DNA of 64,000 nt from Bacteroidia bacterium. Its GTDB lineage: Bacteria > Bacteroidota > Bacteroidia > J057. The notes below the pieces were generated by a model that was not told where the DNA came from, did not search any database, and saw only the letters and a program-made list of their open reading frames with translations. Of this stretch, positions 4,001-10,119 are shown in pieces. Position 1 is the first letter of the stretch. Every line of letters begins with the position of its first letter. Position numbers and translations under genes: made by a program. The DNA is taken from contig JAWPMV010000001.1 in assembly GCA_033391075.1 (NCBI GenBank), positions 3,472,001-3,536,000 on the forward strand, read 5' to 3'.

Positions 4001-4652
4001 TCCATTCGAAACTAGCTTCACCTTTGTCACACCACCCTTGACAAGCACACAGACTTATTATATCGAAGCGGTTTCTGGATTTGGTTGCAGGAGTTCTCGT
4101 GTAGAAATCAATGCCTATACGCATGATGAGAGTTTAGGCCGTTTGGTGGTCAATGATTCTGTCCTTGAAATCCCACAAGCTATTGCTGAGTTTGCTGTCA
4201 TCGGTGGCAGTCCTATTGCTACCTATGATTGGGACTTTGGAGATGGAAATACCTCTACGGACTCGGAACCAGTGCATGAATACAAAAATGCAGGCAAGTT
4301 TCTGGTTAGCTTGAACTACCTCACAGAAAATGGATGTGAAGGGCAATTCTCTCGCTTGATCGAAGTAAAAGAGTTGGTTGTCGTAAGCATCCCCTCTGCT
4401 TTCTCTCCCAATGGAGATGGAGTCAATGATTTCTTCTACATCGGCAGCAATCTGATTACTGATGTAGATTTCAAAGTTTATAACCGTTGGGGAGAACTTG
4501 TTTTCCAAAGTCAGAATCCTGATTTCCAATGGAATGGATTCAGTTCAGAAGGAAAAAGATTAGCTGAAGGTGTGTATGTGTACTTGTTTGATGGAATTGA
4601 TATACAAGGACGCCCTATAGAGCGCTCCGGTACCATCAGTTTATTCAAGTAA
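1020..4652 (+). CDS. Giant PKD-repeat secreted protein with T9SS type B sorting domain
   Basis: This 1210-residue exported protein starts with a signal peptide of about 24 residues ending LYAQ. A cysteine-rich N-terminal region and an Ig-like segment (about 190-290) follow. Then comes a long array of PKD-type beta domains, each marked by W-D-F-G or a close variant, at about residues 401, 486, 570, 650, 734, 817, 903 and 1071. An Ig-like insert lies near 955-1030. The last 87 residues (from about 1124, PSAFSPNGDGVND) match the gliding-motility-associated CHU_C/T9SS type B domain. This domain directs export across the outer membrane and surface attachment. The likely role is an adhesin or surface scaffold; no catalytic domain is visible. 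Its 3' end overlaps the convergent oxidoreductase gene by 12 bases. Confidence 0.9.
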   Translation: MTRNLRLILIFSFNFFMLGQLYAQQPEQDCINAIPVCQNVYVQTNSYVGEGLDPNEIDANISCLGSGEENDVWYIFTVQTAGMVSFTVNPINFFDDYDWAVYDLTNNSCADIATNAGLEISCNYSATSGPTGPNLPGGAPSNGAGGPNRNGLIPVVAGQTLVVNVSNFSNTSSGYTLDFSASTASIFDNIPPTMDSISADCGGGVEVSFSENIVCSTVQPTDFTVTGPGGPFTVTAVGGNNCVAGGTFDTDFVLTVSPLMVQSGTYYISLAGDVEDNCGNIGIYETDSIAIVIPNIAASATQDTICQGQSTTLSTPSQPGFTYVWSGGNTGATVTITPPLTAVYNVFATDPFGCTSTGSVPITVLDTALATFSLSSNSICPDEVIDVTFTGSNDPSASFIWDFGGANVLSGTGAGPYQLSWTTAGIKSVSLNISQQGCASASSSNTVTVNPGPESDFTVPTNPVCLGTTATITYNGTPSATANYFWDFDGGIVLSGAGAGPYQVSWAIPGPKNISLNVTDNNCVSPTTTKSLTVAANPVANISPLMDQCLKGNAFNFSYNGGASIGSYSWDFGDGSPASSLASPIHTYTNSGNYTATLNITDGNGCSNSTTLDVEVYPAVQADFNFSPVCFGQNTSFTDLSNTNGIAIQSWDWDFGNGNASNLQNPDETFSNFGFFNTRLIVTTAQGCADTLIQQTEVFEQPQANFSFTNACENLPVSFTETSVVSSSSLLYNWDFGDGQSAVVANPDHQYTGFGSFPVNLIVTTQNGCTDQFQDNIQVYPKPIANVQIDAVCHENSTVFQDLSSVAAGSSISSYNWDFGNGQSSSDANPQFAYDLAGIYDVSLIVGSGEGCLDTTSLSATVYPNPKADFSMESVCENDEASFMNLSTIDGSITADVIDQFAWNFGDNSSGSTLENPTHTYQTDDTYQVTLTVTSNKGCDANTTLPLLIYPGPDAPQAVEDTSCFGYPAFLIAQPQPGQDVDHVDWYTEATGGSPFETSFTFVTPPLTSTQTYYIEAVSGFGCRSSRVEINAYTHDESLGRLVVNDSVLEIPQAIAEFAVIGGSPIATYDWDFGDGNTSTDSEPVHEYKNAGKFLVSLNYLTENGCEGQFSRLIEVKELVVVSIPSAFSPNGDGVNDFFYIGSNLITDVDFKVYNRWGELVFQSQNPDFQWNGFSSEGKRLAEGVYVYLFDGIDIQGRPIERSGTISLFK

Positions 4653-5744
4653 CAAATTAGCCATTTCTTGCCCAAGGGCACTTCCAATGGCTACTCCCAT
4701 ACCTCCCAGTCTCAAAGCTGCAAAGAGTCGATCATCCACTTGCTGGCAGATCGGCTCTTTACTTTCCCCAAAAGCCATAATTCCTGCCCAGCTATCCGCT
4801 ATTTCATAAGGATGATCAGGGATGATGATATCCTCCATCAAAGCTCTGAGTTTATCCATTATCAGATCGGTGGTTTTCATCTCCAGACTTTGCTCTCCAG
4901 CAAAATCCAGATTCCGCCCTCCTCCCAACATCAATCGATCTTCATAATTCCTAAAATAATAGTAGCCTTCCTCCATATGAAATACTCCCTTTATCTTCAG
5001 TCCCTCAATGGGTTCTGTAATCAATACCTGTCCCCTACCTGGCTTTAGTTCCAGTTGAGGAAAGAATTTCTGACTAAAGGCATTGGTACAAAAGGCCACT
5101 TTCTTACAGGAGAAAAGCAATTCCTCTCCTCCCATGGGATTTTTCACCGAAATCTCCATCCTGTCCGATTTTACGTTCCAGCTATTCACCTCAGCTCCAC
5201 TCAATATTCTGACACCCAGAGCAGCAACATGATTGCTTAGATTCCTCATCATTTCGCCTGTATCAATTTGAGCCTCAAAGGGATTCTCGATGATTCCTTT
5301 GACGGCATCACTTGAAAAAGCAAACTGGCTTATTCTCTCTGCTGCATTTTTATAAACCTTTGTGCCAAAAACCGGGCTCAATAATTTATTGATTTTGGCC
5401 AGTTGATCGAGGTAGTGAAGTTCTTCTCCCCTCAACAATTCATAGCCCCCATAATTGAGGTATCCCAGCTTTTTTTCTCCCAATCTCTTTTTTAGTAATC
5501 CGAGTCCCTTCCATCTTTTTTCTACCAGACCCAGCATCCCCTCCTCTCCAATGAGATTCAAGTCCTGCCATAACTCTGATACCGATCCGAAACAGGCAAA
5601 ACCTGCATTTTTCGTACTGGCTCCACTCGGAAATAAGCCCCTTTCCAAAACAAGAACCTTTGCATCAGAATCCTTTTCCAATAGTTCAGCAGCGGTGGAT
5701 AAGCCTACAATTCCTCCCCCCACAATTATGTAGTCATACTTCAT
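4641..5744 (-). CDS. FAD-dependent oxidoreductase, DAO family
   Basis: This 367-residue flavoprotein belongs to the D-amino-acid oxidase/glycine oxidase (DAO) family. The N-terminus MKYDYIIVGGGIVGLSTA is a classic Rossmann dinucleotide-binding start, followed by VLERG (ribose-binding acidic residue). SGASTKNAGFACFGS matches the flavin-contacting segment of DAO proteins. The C-terminal RLGGMGVAIGSALGQEMANLL closes the FAD site. I chose the ATG at 5744 because it places the Rossmann fold at the N-terminus; an in-frame upstream start at 5843 would add 33 unconserved residues. The substrate is unknown; an amino acid or other amine is likely. The gene faces away from the aromatic operon leader and converges with the PKD gene. 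Confidence 0.85.
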   Translation of the reverse strand: MKYDYIIVGGGIVGLSTAAELLEKDSDAKVLVLERGLFPSGASTKNAGFACFGSVSELWQDLNLIGEEGMLGLVEKRWKGLGLLKKRLGEKKLGYLNYGGYELLRGEELHYLDQLAKINKLLSPVFGTKVYKNAAERISQFAFSSDAVKGIIENPFEAQIDTGEMMRNLSNHVAALGVRILSGAEVNSWNVKSDRMEISVKNPMGGEELLFSCKKVAFCTNAFSQKFFPQLELKPGRGQVLITEPIEGLKIKGVFHMEEGYYYFRNYEDRLMLGGGRNLDFAGEQSLEMKTTDLIMDKLRALMEDIIIPDHPYEIADSWAGIMAFGESKEPICQQVDDRLFAALRLGGMGVAIGSALGQEMANLLLE

Positions 5745-5860
5745 CAAAGAATTCGATTCCCAAAAGCTGATAGATGGATATTGAGTAGGCTGCATAATAT
5801 CTGAATATGAATTTCGCAGAAAAGGATACGATCCGTTAATCATTCTGCAATAAAATTATT

Positions 5861-5891
5861 TTGTTTTATGATTTTATTATCCCTAATATTG
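5861..5891 (+). promoter_or_regulatory. Candidate promoter of the attenuated aromatic operon
   Basis: TTG at 5861-5863 is followed after 20 bases by TAATATTG at 5884-5891, one mismatch from the Bacteroidota -7 consensus TAnnTTTG. Transcription would start a few bases before the leader ATG at 5899, giving a nearly leaderless leader-peptide mRNA. A start further upstream is also possible. Confidence 0.4.
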
Positions 5892-5898
5892 TGTCGGA

Positions 5899-5976
5899 AT
5901 GAAATTAAGCCAAACATACAAGTCTTTTTATTATTACTTCTTTTATTTTTTTAAAAGCAGTCCAGGGACTTGTTAA
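5899..5976 (+). CDS. Phe/Tyr-rich leader peptide of the aromatic operon
   Basis: An unannotated ATG (5899) opens a 25-codon frame ending at TAA (5974-5976). Residues 9-19 read SFYYYFFYFFK, and Tyr7 makes 10 aromatics in 25 residues (5 Phe, 5 Tyr). The downstream genes make Phe and Tyr, so this has the expected form of a ribosome-stalling leader peptide in transcription attenuation. Both T-ending and C-ending codons occur (TTT, TTC, TAT, TAC), so the run is not one monotonous T tract. Even so, the DNA is T-rich and chance must be considered. No convincing Shine-Dalgarno is seen, which is usual for this phylum. Its job would be to report charging of tRNA-Phe and tRNA-Tyr rather than to act as a protein. 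Confidence 0.7.
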   Translation: MKLSQTYKSFYYYFFYFFKSSPGTC

Positions 5977-6032
5977 GTATAAACAATATATTTTTTTAGC
6001 CGTCCCTGAATGATATTCAGGGATTTTTTTTT
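5963..6032 (+). promoter_or_regulatory. Attenuator: competing antiterminator and terminator
   Basis: Segment 2, CAGGGAC (5963-5969), lies in leader codons 22-24. It is exactly complementary to segment 3, GTCCCTG (6002-6008), which is also the 5' arm of the terminator. An extra nested helix TTGTT (5970-5974) with AACAA (5982-5986) supports the antiterminator. A ribosome stalled early in the aromatic codons (5926-5952) would leave segment 2 free, so 2:3 pairs and transcription continues. A ribosome reaching the stop codon at 5974 would cover segment 2, so the terminator forms. The geometry matches classical trp/phe-type attenuation. The pairing is read from the sequence; the regulation is inferred. 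Confidence 0.7.
6003..6032 (+). terminator. Intrinsic terminator inside the aromatic operon leader
   Basis: TCCCTGAAT (6003-6011) and ATTCAGGGA (6015-6023) form a perfect 9-bp stem with a 3-base loop, followed by nine T residues (6024-6032). It sits only 11 bases before the prephenate dehydratase ATG. A constitutive terminator there would silence the operon, so it must be conditional. Confidence 0.85.
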
Positions 6033-6043
6033 AGTCAAAAATT

Positions 6044-6901
6044 ATGCATCAAGTGCTTCAGGCAACAAAACCCATAGCGATCCAGGGAGTCCAGGGCTCC
6101 TTCCATGAGATAGCTGCGAAGAAATACTTCGGAAATGAAATCGAACTGGAAATGTGTGATTCTTTTCCGGGCCTCTTTCAGGCAATGGAAAGTGGTCGTT
6201 CTTCTTTTGGGGTTGTTGCGATAGAAAATACCGTAGCAGGTACTATCCTTCCTAATTATGCCTTATTGCGTAATTCCAATTACAAAGTGATCGGTGAAGT
6301 TTATCTCCGCATTGAGCATCAATTGCTGGGGCTGAAAGGAAGTACGATTGAAACATTAGAAGAGGTTTATTCCCATCCAATGGCAATCAATCAGTGCAGA
6401 CACTTTTTTCGCTCCTACCCTCAAATCAAATTGATTTCTGCAGATGATACGGCTGCAAGTGCAGCCAGACTCGCCCAATCACAGACCAAAGGCCAGGCAG
6501 CTATAGCGAGTCGCCTTGCAGCCGAGACCTACGAACTTGAAATTCTCGCAGAAAGTATAGAAGATAATAAGAGGAACTTTACCCGCTTCCTGATCATTAC
6601 TGATGATATGGACTTCCTGGCGAAGCAAGAGGAGATTAACAAAGCGAGTATCAGTTTTATTGTAGCACATAAAGTCGGACATCTCTCTCAGATATTACAG
6701 GTTTTGAGTGCCTATGATATGAGTTTGAGTAAAATCCAGTCCTCTCCGATTGTAGGACAGGAATGGCAATATTTCTTCCATGTGGATTTGGAATTTGACG
6801 ACTACGAACGATTCAGACAGTCTTTAAATGCCATCAATCCCCTTTTATCAGAGTTAAAGGTATTGGGAGAATATCCAAAAGGCGACAAAAACGTTAGTTA
6901 G
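6044..6901 (+). CDS. pheA: Prephenate dehydratase
   Basis: This 285-residue enzyme converts prephenate to phenylpyruvate, the committed step to phenylalanine. The catalytic PDT domain covers about residues 10-190. It contains FPGLFQAMESG, VVAIENTVAGTI and the essential T-R-F in NFTRFLII (about residues 183-190). A C-terminal ACT domain (about 203-280, SFIVAHKVGHLSQIL) is the usual Phe-binding feedback site. There is no chorismate mutase domain here; that activity is on the DAHP synthase fusion three genes downstream. It is the first structural gene after the attenuator, and the next gene starts 22 bases after its stop. Confidence 0.93.
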   Translation: MHQVLQATKPIAIQGVQGSFHEIAAKKYFGNEIELEMCDSFPGLFQAMESGRSSFGVVAIENTVAGTILPNYALLRNSNYKVIGEVYLRIEHQLLGLKGSTIETLEEVYSHPMAINQCRHFFRSYPQIKLISADDTAASAARLAQSQTKGQAAIASRLAAETYELEILAESIEDNKRNFTRFLIITDDMDFLAKQEEINKASISFIVAHKVGHLSQILQVLSAYDMSLSKIQSSPIVGQEWQYFFHVDLEFDDYERFRQSLNAINPLLSELKVLGEYPKGDKNVS

Positions 6902-6923: not shown

Positions 6924-8096
6924 ATGATTATACCTGAAGCAAATAGATTAGGCAGCGTGAAAGAATACTATTTCTCAAGAAAATTGAGAGAAATAAGAGC
7001 TCGCGTTGCAGCTGGAGAACACATCCTCAATCTCGGGATTGGCAATCCGGATATGTCTCCTTCTGATTCGACCCTTAAAACCCTGGTTAAAGAAGCCATT
7101 GAGCCGGGCAAGCATGGCTATCAACCTTATAAAGGAACTGCCCAGCTTAGATATGCTTTTGCCAAATGGTATGAGAATACCTATCGTGTACAATTACATG
7201 CAGATTCCGAAATCCTCCCGCTTATGGGATCCAAGGAAGGCATCATGCATGTCTCTATGGCTTTTCTCAATGAAGGAGATCAGGCGCTGGTACCAAATCC
7301 GGGATACCCGGCTTATTCAAGTGCAGCCCGCATTGCAGGAGCGGAAATTGTGTCTTACAAACTTTCGCCCGAAAATGACTGGTACCCAAATCTGGAAGAA
7401 TTAGCCAAACAAGATCTCAGCCGTGTAAAAATCATGTGGATCAATTATCCGCATATGCCTACAGGAACACGCCCTACAGATGAGCTTTTTGAGCAGTTGG
7501 TGGCTTTCGCCCAAGAACATAAAATCCTCCTCTGTCATGACAATCCTTATAGCCTGGTATTGAATCCGGATCCTAAAAGTATTCTTTCTATCCCTGGAGC
7601 CAAAGAAGTAGCGATTGAACTCAATTCTTTGAGTAAATCTCATAATATGGCTGGATGGAGAATCGGTTTATTTGCGGGAGCAGAGGCTTACCTTCAGGCT
7701 GTGCTAAAGGTAAAAAGCAATATGGATTCAGGAATGTTCCTTCCTTTACAGGAAGCCGCAGTTAGTGCACTTGCCAATTCATTTGCCTGGCATGGAGAAA
7801 GAAATGCAGAGTACCAGAAAAGAAGGAATATTGCCTTTGAGATGCTGGATGAATTGGGATGTAGCTACAAAAAAGATCAGGCGGGTATGTTTGTCTGGGC
7901 TCGGATTCCAGATAATGAAGCAAGCGGAGAGGAATTTTCAGAACGAATTCTAAATAGCATACACGTTTTCCTGACGCCCGGATTTATTTTCGGAGATCAG
8001 GGAGAAAAATATATACGTATTTCCCTATGCACACCAATGGATGGTCTGCAACTGGCCCTGGAAAGAATTAAAGCATTTACAAAAGCAACAGTATGA
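6924..8096 (+). CDS. Class I/II aminotransferase of the aromatic operon
   Basis: This 390-residue PLP enzyme is of aminotransferase fold type I. SLSKSHNMAGWRIG (about residues 233-247) contains the Schiff-base lysine. NPGYPAY, HDNPYS and YIRISLC mark the cofactor and carboxylate-binding (Arg) sites. Related sequences are annotated as aspartate or LL-diaminopimelate-type aminotransferases. Its place between prephenate dehydratase and prephenate dehydrogenase suggests it transaminates phenylpyruvate and 4-hydroxyphenylpyruvate, or prephenate. It overlaps the next gene by 4 bases (ATGA at 8093-8096), so the two are probably translationally coupled. The exact substrate is inferred from context. 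Confidence 0.88.
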   Translation: MIIPEANRLGSVKEYYFSRKLREIRARVAAGEHILNLGIGNPDMSPSDSTLKTLVKEAIEPGKHGYQPYKGTAQLRYAFAKWYENTYRVQLHADSEILPLMGSKEGIMHVSMAFLNEGDQALVPNPGYPAYSSAARIAGAEIVSYKLSPENDWYPNLEELAKQDLSRVKIMWINYPHMPTGTRPTDELFEQLVAFAQEHKILLCHDNPYSLVLNPDPKSILSIPGAKEVAIELNSLSKSHNMAGWRIGLFAGAEAYLQAVLKVKSNMDSGMFLPLQEAAVSALANSFAWHGERNAEYQKRRNIAFEMLDELGCSYKKDQAGMFVWARIPDNEASGEEFSERILNSIHVFLTPGFIFGDQGEKYIRISLCTPMDGLQLALERIKAFTKATV

Positions 8097-8962
8097 TTGT
8101 TTCGATCATTGGATTAGGATTGATTGGTGGTTCCCTTGCTTTGGATTTGAGAAGTAATGGCTTTGCGAGTCGTTTGATTGGTGTGGACCTGAAAAGGGAA
8201 CACCAGGAGCAAGCGATGGAATTAGGCCTGGTAGATGAAATCATGGAATGGGAAGAAGCCTGCAAAGTAGCGGATATTCTTATCCTAACAGTACCTGTAA
8301 GTGCGATTCTCAAGCAGCTTCCCAAAGCCCTGGACCTTGTACGCGAGGATGCTTTGGTCATGGATATGGGCTCAACCAAATCCGAAATAAAGCAAAGCAT
8401 ATCTGGACATCCGAAAAGAAAACGTGCTGTGCTCGCCCACCCTATGGCGGGCACAGAGTATTCTGGGCCCAAAGCTGCTATCCATAACCTTTTTCATAGA
8501 AAGGTAGCGATCATTTGTGATCCAACAGAAAGTGATAAGGATGCCCTCGAATTGGCAGAAAGATTATTAAAAAGCCTCTTCATGCGCATCATTTATATGG
8601 ATGCCCGGGAACATGATGTACATGCTGCATATGTTTCCCATGTCTCCCATATTAGTTCTTTTGTTCTGGCTCTCACGGTCCTTGAGAAAGAAAAAAGTGA
8701 AGCCAATATCTTCAATATGGCTTCCGGAGGTTTTGCCTCTACAGTTCGATTGGCGAAAAGTTCTCCCAAAATGTGGAGAGATGTCTACGAACAAAATGCG
8801 GACAACCTCATTGATGTACTCGAAATTTATATTAAAAAAATGCAGGCATTCAAAGGCCTGATTGAATCCGGAGAATTTGACAAGACAGCTGAACTCATGC
8901 AAGAAGCCAATGAGATCGGCAGGATTTTGAAAGAGACTCCTCACTTAATGAAATACAGCTAA
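8093..8962 (+). CDS. tyrA: Prephenate dehydrogenase
   Basis: This 289-residue NAD(P)-dependent enzyme oxidatively decarboxylates prephenate to 4-hydroxyphenylpyruvate for tyrosine synthesis. The N-terminus has the Rossmann motif IIGLGLIGGSLA (residues 4-15). VMDMGSTKSEI and HPMAGTEYSGP are the conserved substrate-site segments, and the histidine of HPMAGTE is catalytically important in the family. The helical C-terminal domain contains the paired YVSHVSHISSF histidines. No ACT domain is attached, so feedback by Tyr would have to act elsewhere or at the attenuator. Start codon overlap with the aminotransferase and a 10-base gap to the DAHP synthase gene indicate one operon. Confidence 0.92.
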   Translation: MIVSIIGLGLIGGSLALDLRSNGFASRLIGVDLKREHQEQAMELGLVDEIMEWEEACKVADILILTVPVSAILKQLPKALDLVREDALVMDMGSTKSEIKQSISGHPKRKRAVLAHPMAGTEYSGPKAAIHNLFHRKVAIICDPTESDKDALELAERLLKSLFMRIIYMDAREHDVHAAYVSHVSHISSFVLALTVLEKEKSEANIFNMASGGFASTVRLAKSSPKMWRDVYEQNADNLIDVLEIYIKKMQAFKGLIESGEFDKTAELMQEANEIGRILKETPHLMKYS

Positions 8963-8972
8963 TCTAGAAATT

Positions 8973-10067
8973 ATGGAAAAAATGGATCTGATTCCCATGA
9001 AAGAATGGGGACTGGGACTTGGAGACACCATGAATATATCCGGTCCCTGTAGCGCAGAAACCCCCGAACAAGTCATGGAGACTGCTCAGGGAGTTACTCA
9101 ACATGAAGTTGATGTTCTTCGTGCAGGTATCTGGAAACCCAGAACTCGCCCTAATTCTTTTGAAGGAGTGGGAAGTGTAGGCTTGAAATGGTTGAAAGAT
9201 GCCGGAGAAGCTACCGGTAAACCGGTTTGTACAGAAGTAGCCAACGTAAAGCATGTGTATGAAGCGCTACGAACCGGTATAGATATTCTTTGGGTAGGTG
9301 CTCGTACCACAACCAATCCATTTGCCGTTCAGGAGATCGCAGATGCACTCGAAGGAGTAAACATCCCGGTCATGGTAAAAAACCCGGTAAACCCGGATTT
9401 GGAACTATGGATAGGTGCTATGGAAAGGCTTTATAAATCGGGCATTAATAAAATTGCGGCTATTCACAGAGGATTTTCTACCTACGGACCTTCAAAATAT
9501 CGAAATGAGCCCCAGTGGGAAATTCCGATCGAGCTTAGAAGGCGTATGCCTGATCTTCCGATCATCTGTGATCCCAGTCATATTTCAGGAAAAAGAGAAT
9601 TGCTACAGCCTGTCTCTCAAAAAGCCCTGGACTTGAATTTCGATGGACTCATGATTGAATCCCATCCTAATCCTGACAAAGCTTTGAGTGATGCAAAACA
9701 ACAGGTAACTCCTGTAAGATTGGGAGAGATTCTGGAAAGCCTTGTTCACAGAAATGCCAATTCAGCTGATCCACAACTCTCAAATAAACTTGAAATGTTT
9801 AGAGAAAGGATAGATGAGATTGACGAACAACTCATCCGTATGTTGGCTGATAGAATGGATGTGGTTAAAAAGATTGGACAGTTTAAGAAGGATAATAGTA
9901 TCACCATTCTTCAGACTTCTCGTTGGAATGAAATCATTCAGGAGAGATTGGCACTCTCTTCCCCTCTGGGAATTAGTAATGATATAATGGTTGAAATCTT
10001 GCAGATGATTCATAAAGAATCTATCCGCCAGCAAACCGCAGTGATGAATGCAGTAGAATCCAAATAA
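8973..10067 (+). CDS. DAHP synthase fused to type II chorismate mutase
   Basis: This 364-residue bifunctional enzyme has an N-terminal DAHP synthase of the KDOPS-like family at about residues 10-260 (SGPCSAETPEQV, RAGIWKPRTRPNSFEG, GARTTTNPFAVQ, CDPSHISGKRE). It condenses PEP with erythrose 4-phosphate to start the shikimate pathway. The C-terminal AroQ-type chorismate mutase (about 272-358, FRERIDEIDEQLIRMLADRM) converts chorismate to prephenate. The fusion couples pathway entry to the branch feeding the two prephenate enzymes encoded just upstream. In related fusions the mutase domain also confers feedback inhibition by prephenate; that is family knowledge, not visible here. It is the last gene of the operon, followed by a strong terminator. 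Confidence 0.93.
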   Translation: MEKMDLIPMKEWGLGLGDTMNISGPCSAETPEQVMETAQGVTQHEVDVLRAGIWKPRTRPNSFEGVGSVGLKWLKDAGEATGKPVCTEVANVKHVYEALRTGIDILWVGARTTTNPFAVQEIADALEGVNIPVMVKNPVNPDLELWIGAMERLYKSGINKIAAIHRGFSTYGPSKYRNEPQWEIPIELRRRMPDLPIICDPSHISGKRELLQPVSQKALDLNFDGLMIESHPNPDKALSDAKQQVTPVRLGEILESLVHRNANSADPQLSNKLEMFRERIDEIDEQLIRMLADRMDVVKKIGQFKKDNSITILQTSRWNEIIQERLALSSPLGISNDIMVEILQMIHKESIRQQTAVMNAVESK

Positions 10068-10086: not shown

Positions 10087-10119
10087 AAAAAGCGCGAATC
10101 GGTTGACTCGCGCTTTTTT
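10087..10119 (+). terminator. Terminator of the aromatic operon
   Basis: AAAAAGCGCGA (10087-10097) pairs with TCGCGCTTTTT (10108-10118), with a 10-base loop and a run of six T. It lies 20 bases after the DAHP synthase stop. Confidence 0.9.

Follow-up and report, generated by a model that had tools for sequence, protein, structure and literature searches.

A leader peptide, terminator and predicted antiterminator ahead of pheA in Bacteroidota: very probably a ribosome-mediated attenuator with Phe and Tyr control codons

The window analysed here is a 64,000-nucleotide stretch of a Bacteroidia genome (contig JAWPMV010000001.1) that carries, on its + strand, a four-gene operon with the order pheA-AT-tyrA-aroG/CM. 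The first gene, pheA, encodes prephenate dehydratase (6044-6901; Pfam PF00800); it is followed by genes for a class I/II aminotransferase (AT, 6924-8096; PF00155), prephenate dehydrogenase (tyrA, 8093-8962; PF02153 and PF20463) and a DAHP synthase fused to a type II chorismate mutase (aroG/CM, 8973-10067; PF00793 and PF01817). A hairpin with a T run, seen by eye past the last of these genes at 10092-10119, is the likely operon end. The upstream neighbour gene (4641-5843) lies on the − strand and is directed away from the operon. Ahead of pheA, and on its strand, an ATG-to-TAA frame at 5899-5976 encodes 25 amino acids, MKLSQTYKSFYYYFFYFFKSSPGTC, with five Phe and five Tyr codons; codons 10-18 (5926-5952) form an uninterrupted run, FYYYFFYFF, and 67 nt separate the end of the frame from the pheA ATG at 6044. 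No fold is expected for the encoded peptide. A first-pass annotation had proposed that this frame is a leader peptide standing directly before genes for just these two amino acids; ORF reading and the Pfam assignments bear out the frame, its codons and the genes that it precedes. Its accompanying worry, that T-rich DNA can give such a run by chance, is justified for the single sequence: 75 of 5000 dinucleotide shuffles of the one 200-nt region yield an ATG ORF with 10 or more Phe/Tyr codons (84 of 2000 when three start codons are allowed). Because so many shuffles do as well, the run by itself is weak evidence, only mildly unusual for T-rich DNA and suggestive rather than proof; across loci, as described below, the worry falls away. 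An overlapping Leu-rich ORF (5868-5954; MILLSLILCRNEIKPNIQVFLLLLLLFF) was considered and rejected as a reading of that T-rich run in a different frame: an ATG frame of that kind is found in only two of eight members of the window's family (the second is L008) and in five of 125 pheA loci, whereas the aromatic frame is present in eight of eight and 94 of 125.

Between the leader ORF and pheA there is one intrinsic-terminator-like hairpin (6002-6024; 10 bp; −12.6 kcal/mol), followed by eight T residues. It is not needed by the upstream neighbour gene, since that gene runs the other way. Its 5' arm (6002-6011) will be referred to as region 3, and its 3' arm together with the T run (6015-6032, the arm extending to 6024) as region 4. 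Part of region 3, GTCCCTG (6002-6008), doubles as the 3' arm of a predicted antiterminator, the 5' arm of which is CAGGGAC (region 2; 5963-5969), in the last codons of the leader; the pairing is worth −14.2 kcal/mol, and a fraction of 0.005 of shuffles does equally well. Region 1 (5918-5927) pairs with 5964-5973 in the minimum-energy fold, for which z = −3.1. The predicted regions are ordered 1-2-3-4, as in a classical attenuator.

Folding with parts of the RNA masked, as a ribosome would mask them, suggests how these pairings may succeed each other. A ribosome mask reaching to the aromatic run, applied before region 4 exists, is predicted to let 2:3 form (5.0-7.2 expected pairs); moved to the stop codon, it leaves the defined arm of region 2 with 0 expected pairs to region 3, and 3:4 has 9.5 in the full RNA, although 4.0 expected pairs with region 3 persist in the window at that ribosome position when region 2 is defined more widely. 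Once the window's RNA is finished, 3:4 is predicted to be more stable than 2:3 in every ribosome state, so that antitermination must be kinetic, with 2:3 pairing before region 4 is made. Without a ribosome, and before region 4 is made, the window's sequence favours 2:3 over 1:2; the latter is present in the full RNA and absent at the earlier stage. Under the same conditions 1:2 dominates in four of the eight family members (G002, G007, G008 and G009).

The leader and its terminator are widely conserved. In a sample of 13 genomes of the window's family, nine had a PheA match and eight of these had upstream DNA (L009 is truncated); each of the eight, counting the window, has a terminator preceded by an ATG ORF that contains a Phe/Tyr run, and the other seven PheA proteins are just 54-60% identical to that of the window. 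The wider sample, drawn by similarity to the window's PheA (to the family loci were joined 35 titled loci, two from a search of the order and others from a search of the class, in which 88 of 296 genomes matched), came to 125 non-duplicate loci with enough upstream DNA. An ORF starting with ATG, 10-45 codons long and with at least six Phe/Tyr/Trp codons within 12, is found in 94 of the 125 (73 of 2500 shuffles); the ORF joined with a hairpin of −9 kcal/mol or better and a T run is found in 93, against two of 2500 shuffles. These loci are not independent of each other, since some genera were sampled repeatedly (Marinifilum seven times). The first-pass annotation had named orthologous upstream regions with a missing or frameshifted aromatic ATG frame as what would count against a leader; the counts from family and wider sample point the other way. 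It is the conservation of leader plus terminator in both samples that settles the case, and the terminator, the antiterminator and the promoter, none of which figured in that annotation, make it.

Five of the 32 loci missed by the joint rule look like real leaders: L095 starts with GTG, the terminator of L087 is cut off, and the runs of L048, L053 and L063 are shorter. From the other 27, L045 (titled Acidobacteria) among them, a leader was taken to be absent; ten of these were read in sequence and no leader was found in any, L111 and L117 having a hairpin with a T run and no aromatic frame. Codon changes among relatives tell the same story as the counts. In 42 pairs of close leaders, 73 aromatic codons differ, 15 synonymously, 42 by swaps among Phe, Tyr and Trp, and 16 otherwise; an aromatic residue is thus kept in 57 of 73, against 18.5% for random change (5.5% synonymous, 13% swap, 81.5% other). 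A search of the phylum matched 258 of 296 genomes; among 40 loci (L210-L249) chosen from rows of the same phylum and another class, leader and terminator occur in only three (L230, L231 and L247), each with shared operon genes beside pheA, and L217 has aroG/CM beside pheA and no leader. The best 20 loci of that search (L190-L209), at least three of which come from genomes already used, have leader and terminator in 19, the exception being L192. Two metagenome-assembled genomes titled Lentisphaeria and Victivallales (L013 and L038) also have an aromatic ORF and terminator before a pheA whose product is 53-54% identical to the window's; either gene transfer or mis-binned contigs would account for this.

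The predicted antiterminator can be followed through the same loci. Of 105 leaders, 82 pass the 0.05 level for complementarity between regions 2 and 3, and 63 the 0.01 level; the 23 leaders above 0.05 include some with mis-called terminators and three from the window's own family, in which five of eight members pass. The median position of region 2 across leaders, −10 to 0 nt relative to the stop codon, would bring it under a terminating ribosome. Pairing of each region 2 with its own region 3 averages −15.7 kcal/mol, against −9.8 with region 3 swapped in from other loci; own pairing beats the mean swap in 84 of 86 loci, and the own region 3 ranks in the top 10% of partners in 56 of 86. That pairing is lost on swapping argues that the arms covary. 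Structure prediction and covariation together point to an antiterminator that is mutually exclusive with the terminator, and that would be exposed by a ribosome stalled in the run and covered by one at the stop codon.

The control codons can be compared with the genes that they precede in the 93 loci with leader and terminator, each judged by the leader closest to pheA (L042, whose stretch ends 76 nt after pheA, was left out of the match). Where AT, tyrA or aroG/CM lies downstream on the same strand in the stretch fetched, the leader holds both Phe and Tyr, in 85 of 85 loci; 29 of these leaders also hold Trp. Seven loci, all from Marinifilum, have none of the three genes within 2.5 kb (after pheA of M. 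flexuosum, L022, the first ORF to reach 100 amino acids is on the other strand), and their proximal leaders are Phe only, seven of seven. L034 departs slightly from this, in that a single Tyr stands outside the Phe run of its first leader, the one farther from pheA. In two Marinifilum genomes (L131 and L132) AT-tyrA-aroG/CM is located elsewhere, and its leaders hold Phe, Tyr and Trp. Two leaders, MKTVTTYISNFYYFWFYFYPTR and MSNKAFTYRFYFYYFWFNTNRAGCLIP, belong to the L131 operon itself, and a hairpin (seen by eye) and T run come after each; in L132, which is cut at its start, the second leader and the terminator preceding it are visible. The converse arrangement is found in the genus g36, where tyrA stands alone, none of the 30 stretches, which take in about 1.5 kb to either side, having a match to pheA, AT or aroG/CM. 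A leader with Tyr-Tyr-Tyr and a terminator precedes it in 29 of the 30 (L141-L170); the start is mostly GTG, and the 23 distinct peptides mostly have one Phe further on. The pheA loci of g36 (L126 and L128) have no leader. A search for tyrA in 23 genomes gave eight matches, of which L136 is the g36 locus and L133 lies directly after pheA; no convincing aromatic leader adjoins tyrA at the remaining L134, L135, L137, L138, L139 and L140, four of which have AT genes upstream. Marinifilum and g36 being one genus each, these amount to two evolutionary cases. As far as sequence can tell, control codons follow gene content, and this match in relatives lends support to the original suggestion that the window's leader would sense both charged tRNAs at once.

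The Bacteroidota promoter box, TAnnTTTG, is placed at −12 to −5 relative to the transcription start by PMC9723704; the −33 consensus is TTTG (PMC7366714). A −7 box differing from that consensus at one position, TAATATTG, lies on the + strand at 5884-5891, 7 nt before the leader ATG, with a single, weak −33-like candidate, TTTG, at 5860-5863 on the same strand. By that placement transcription is predicted to start at 5896, giving a 5' UTR of ~3 nt, which would leave no room for a Shine-Dalgarno sequence. (A sigma-70 scan had its sole + strand site inside pheA and was set aside in favour of the Bacteroidota box.) Searching with the fixed pattern TANNNTYG placed a box 4-11 nt from the ATG in all eight family members (2.8% per sequence in shuffles), and 4-11 nt from the start in ten of 15 other loci of Saprospiraceae type, a grouping made by hand from record titles in which L028 is labelled only Bacteroidetes. 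Among the remaining 78 leaders the box is 4-11 nt away in ten and 12-32 nt away in 35, and no box is recognised in 33. Since only ten of these 78 fit, 'near-leaderless' was rejected as a general rule. For comparison, leaderless mRNAs make up 5.5% according to PMC9723704, and 5' UTRs under 10 nt ~3.7% (PMC7366714). In the tyrA leaders of g36 the box is exactly 4 nt before the start in 29 of 29, so that the GTG, where it is used, would be the first codon of the RNA.

We consider it very probable that the element is a ribosome-mediated transcription attenuator sensing Phe- and Tyr-tRNA. Transcription would start ~3 nt ahead of the leader ATG, with a ribosome beginning translation of the leader at once. 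When Phe-tRNA or Tyr-tRNA is short, the ribosome would stall in FYYYFFYFF, leaving CAGGGAC free to pair with GTCCCTG; the terminator hairpin would be blocked and pheA-AT-tyrA-aroG/CM would be transcribed. When both tRNAs are plentiful, the ribosome would reach the UAA at 5974-5976 and cover region 2, the hairpin would form and transcription would end at the T run. The E. coli pheA (pheL) and trp (trpL) leaders are classical ribosome-mediated attenuators. As in these, the window has a short ORF ahead of the operon in which codons for the end products are clustered, a predicted antiterminator and a terminator that are alternatives to each other, and a stop codon at which a terminating ribosome may block region 2. 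It differs from them in mixing Phe and Tyr codons in one run before a combined Phe/Tyr operon, in its very short predicted 5' UTR and in matching no Rfam leader family.

Other readings of the same facts deserve consideration. A leader stall might re-fold the RNA around the pheA start and so control pheA translation or mRNA stability rather than termination. The pheA ATG of the window lies 19 nt past the stem and 11 nt past the T run, so that the start could be affected, and the chosen pheA starts of L093 and L098 are 5 nt past the stem; yet the distance between hairpin and pheA varies widely among loci, up to 130 nt (L062), which fits termination better than start-site masking, and the window's hairpin is followed by T8 (T runs elsewhere are partly built into the detection rule). 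This makes control of translation or stability quite improbable. It has precedent, in peTrpL of Sinorhizobium meliloti (PMC7298713), that a leader peptide or short terminated RNA should also act in trans; the peptide sequence outside the run varies widely among loci, however, and we regard an additional trans action as very improbable here. That a riboswitch, a T-box or an RNA-binding protein sets the terminator, with the ORF incidental, would suit a structured 5' element that ends in a terminator and folds as stably as this one, but conservation lies in the coding of the run together with short complementary arms, and codon identity tracks gene content. A cmscan of 5700-6200 against Rfam, which has Phe_leader among its leader families, gave nothing at gathering score, and no T-box was among its matches at E up to 1; PyrR (24.3 bits, with a gathering score of 54) was rejected as chance, and the only other match listed, snoR118, was also below gathering. 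Control by any of these three is accordingly an extremely improbable reading. A chance frame in T-rich intergenic DNA beside an unrelated terminator, for which the shuffles of the single region do allow, is already refuted by conservation across loci, and the aromatic bias of the codon changes, the match of codons to genes and the opposite orientation of the upstream gene all weigh in the same direction, leaving it a negligible probability.

If the element is the Phe/Tyr attenuator proposed, its kind is classical; what is new here is its anatomy, its breadth, the matching of codons to genes, the tandem copies in relatives (see below) and the predicted ~3 nt 5' UTR. The first-pass annotation named no described example for this operon in Bacteroidota, but the idea has been touched on there. 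A study of Flavobacterium psychrophilum (PMC9723704) offers clues for leader-peptide attenuation before amino-acid operons and describes a structured element upstream of pheA, conserved in other Flavobacteriaceae genera and lacking an Rfam hit: the same gene in the same phylum. Unlike the present analysis, the main text of that paper gives no leader sequence, control codons, antiterminator or comparison of codons with genes. Beyond it, a literature search (most subscription papers being outside its scope) found no paper on a Bacteroidota pheA leader, and none on transcription-translation coupling in this phylum; the main text of a ribosome-profiling study of F. johnsoniae (PMC6847099) mentions neither attenuation nor pheA. 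Two features have precedents elsewhere. The trpL leader ORF of S. meliloti (PMC7298713) is, like the window's, at or next to the 5' end of its transcript, although it concerns Trp in an alphaproteobacterium and its RNA starts on the ATG, whereas the window's RNA is predicted to start ~3 nt before. Two leader ORFs in series are found in Salmonella mgtCBR (PMC3641672), where the copies sense different signals (ATP and proline); in the tandem pheA copies the codons are alike in kind.

The window has a single leader copy. Two aromatic leaders with separate hairpins are found in 11 loci, of which six are from Marinifilum (L020, L022, L023, L024, L033 and L034); in these, and in L057, the first hairpin is weak or doubtful. 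The four clear cases (L086, L099, L108 and L124) have first hairpins of −14.3 to −21.5 kcal/mol and second hairpins of −11.8 to −19.2 kcal/mol.

A more general proposal can be put together from these elements. Bacteroidota, the mRNAs of which do without Shine-Dalgarno sequences, may use a modular form of ribosome-coupled attenuation in the control of aromatic amino acids. Reading of the control ORF would, in the window's family, begin at (almost) the 5' end of the transcript, ribosomes loading as the RNA emerges and keeping pace with the polymerase. The parts of split operons would each keep a leader re-coded for their own product (Phe only for a lone pheA, Tyr for a lone tyrA, and Phe and Tyr, with or without Trp, for shared genes), and some lineages would have two attenuators of the same kind in series. 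Taken jointly, this composite may equally well hold or fail. Leader-peptide attenuation requires a ribosome that closely trails RNA polymerase, and a broadly conserved attenuator with matched codons would be indirect evidence for such coupling in Bacteroidota, as well as a ready assay for it. We find the matching of codons to genes across split operons, and the breadth of the element, the most interesting parts. Marinifilum, with its split operons, and g36, with its lone tyrA, offer natural experiments on how control codons track the genes they precede. Many genomes would also gain short genes and regulatory annotation from the element.

Leaders of comparable design are found before other amino-acid operons of the same organisms. 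In the window's family trpE is preceded by a leader with WW or WWW in ten of ten loci; in the window's own genome it reads MKVLQNTNFWWWHGSDTES (L182, about 1312-1371), is followed by a hairpin and T run seen by eye, and is probably a trp attenuator. A His-rich ORF (at least three His in ten) lies ahead of hisG in seven of nine family loci, and in three of nine under a stricter rule (four His in ten, ATG, short window). The own-genome example (L173, about 1132-1257) ends in FHVHHIHHSSL and is probably a his attenuator. The detectors of these runs keep largely to their own operons: that for aromatic runs was positive in one of nine hisG and none of ten trpE upstream regions, and those for His and Trp runs in none of 125 pheA upstream regions. 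Four of the hisG loci (L172-L175) have in common a GGAGGAA at or just past the stop codon.
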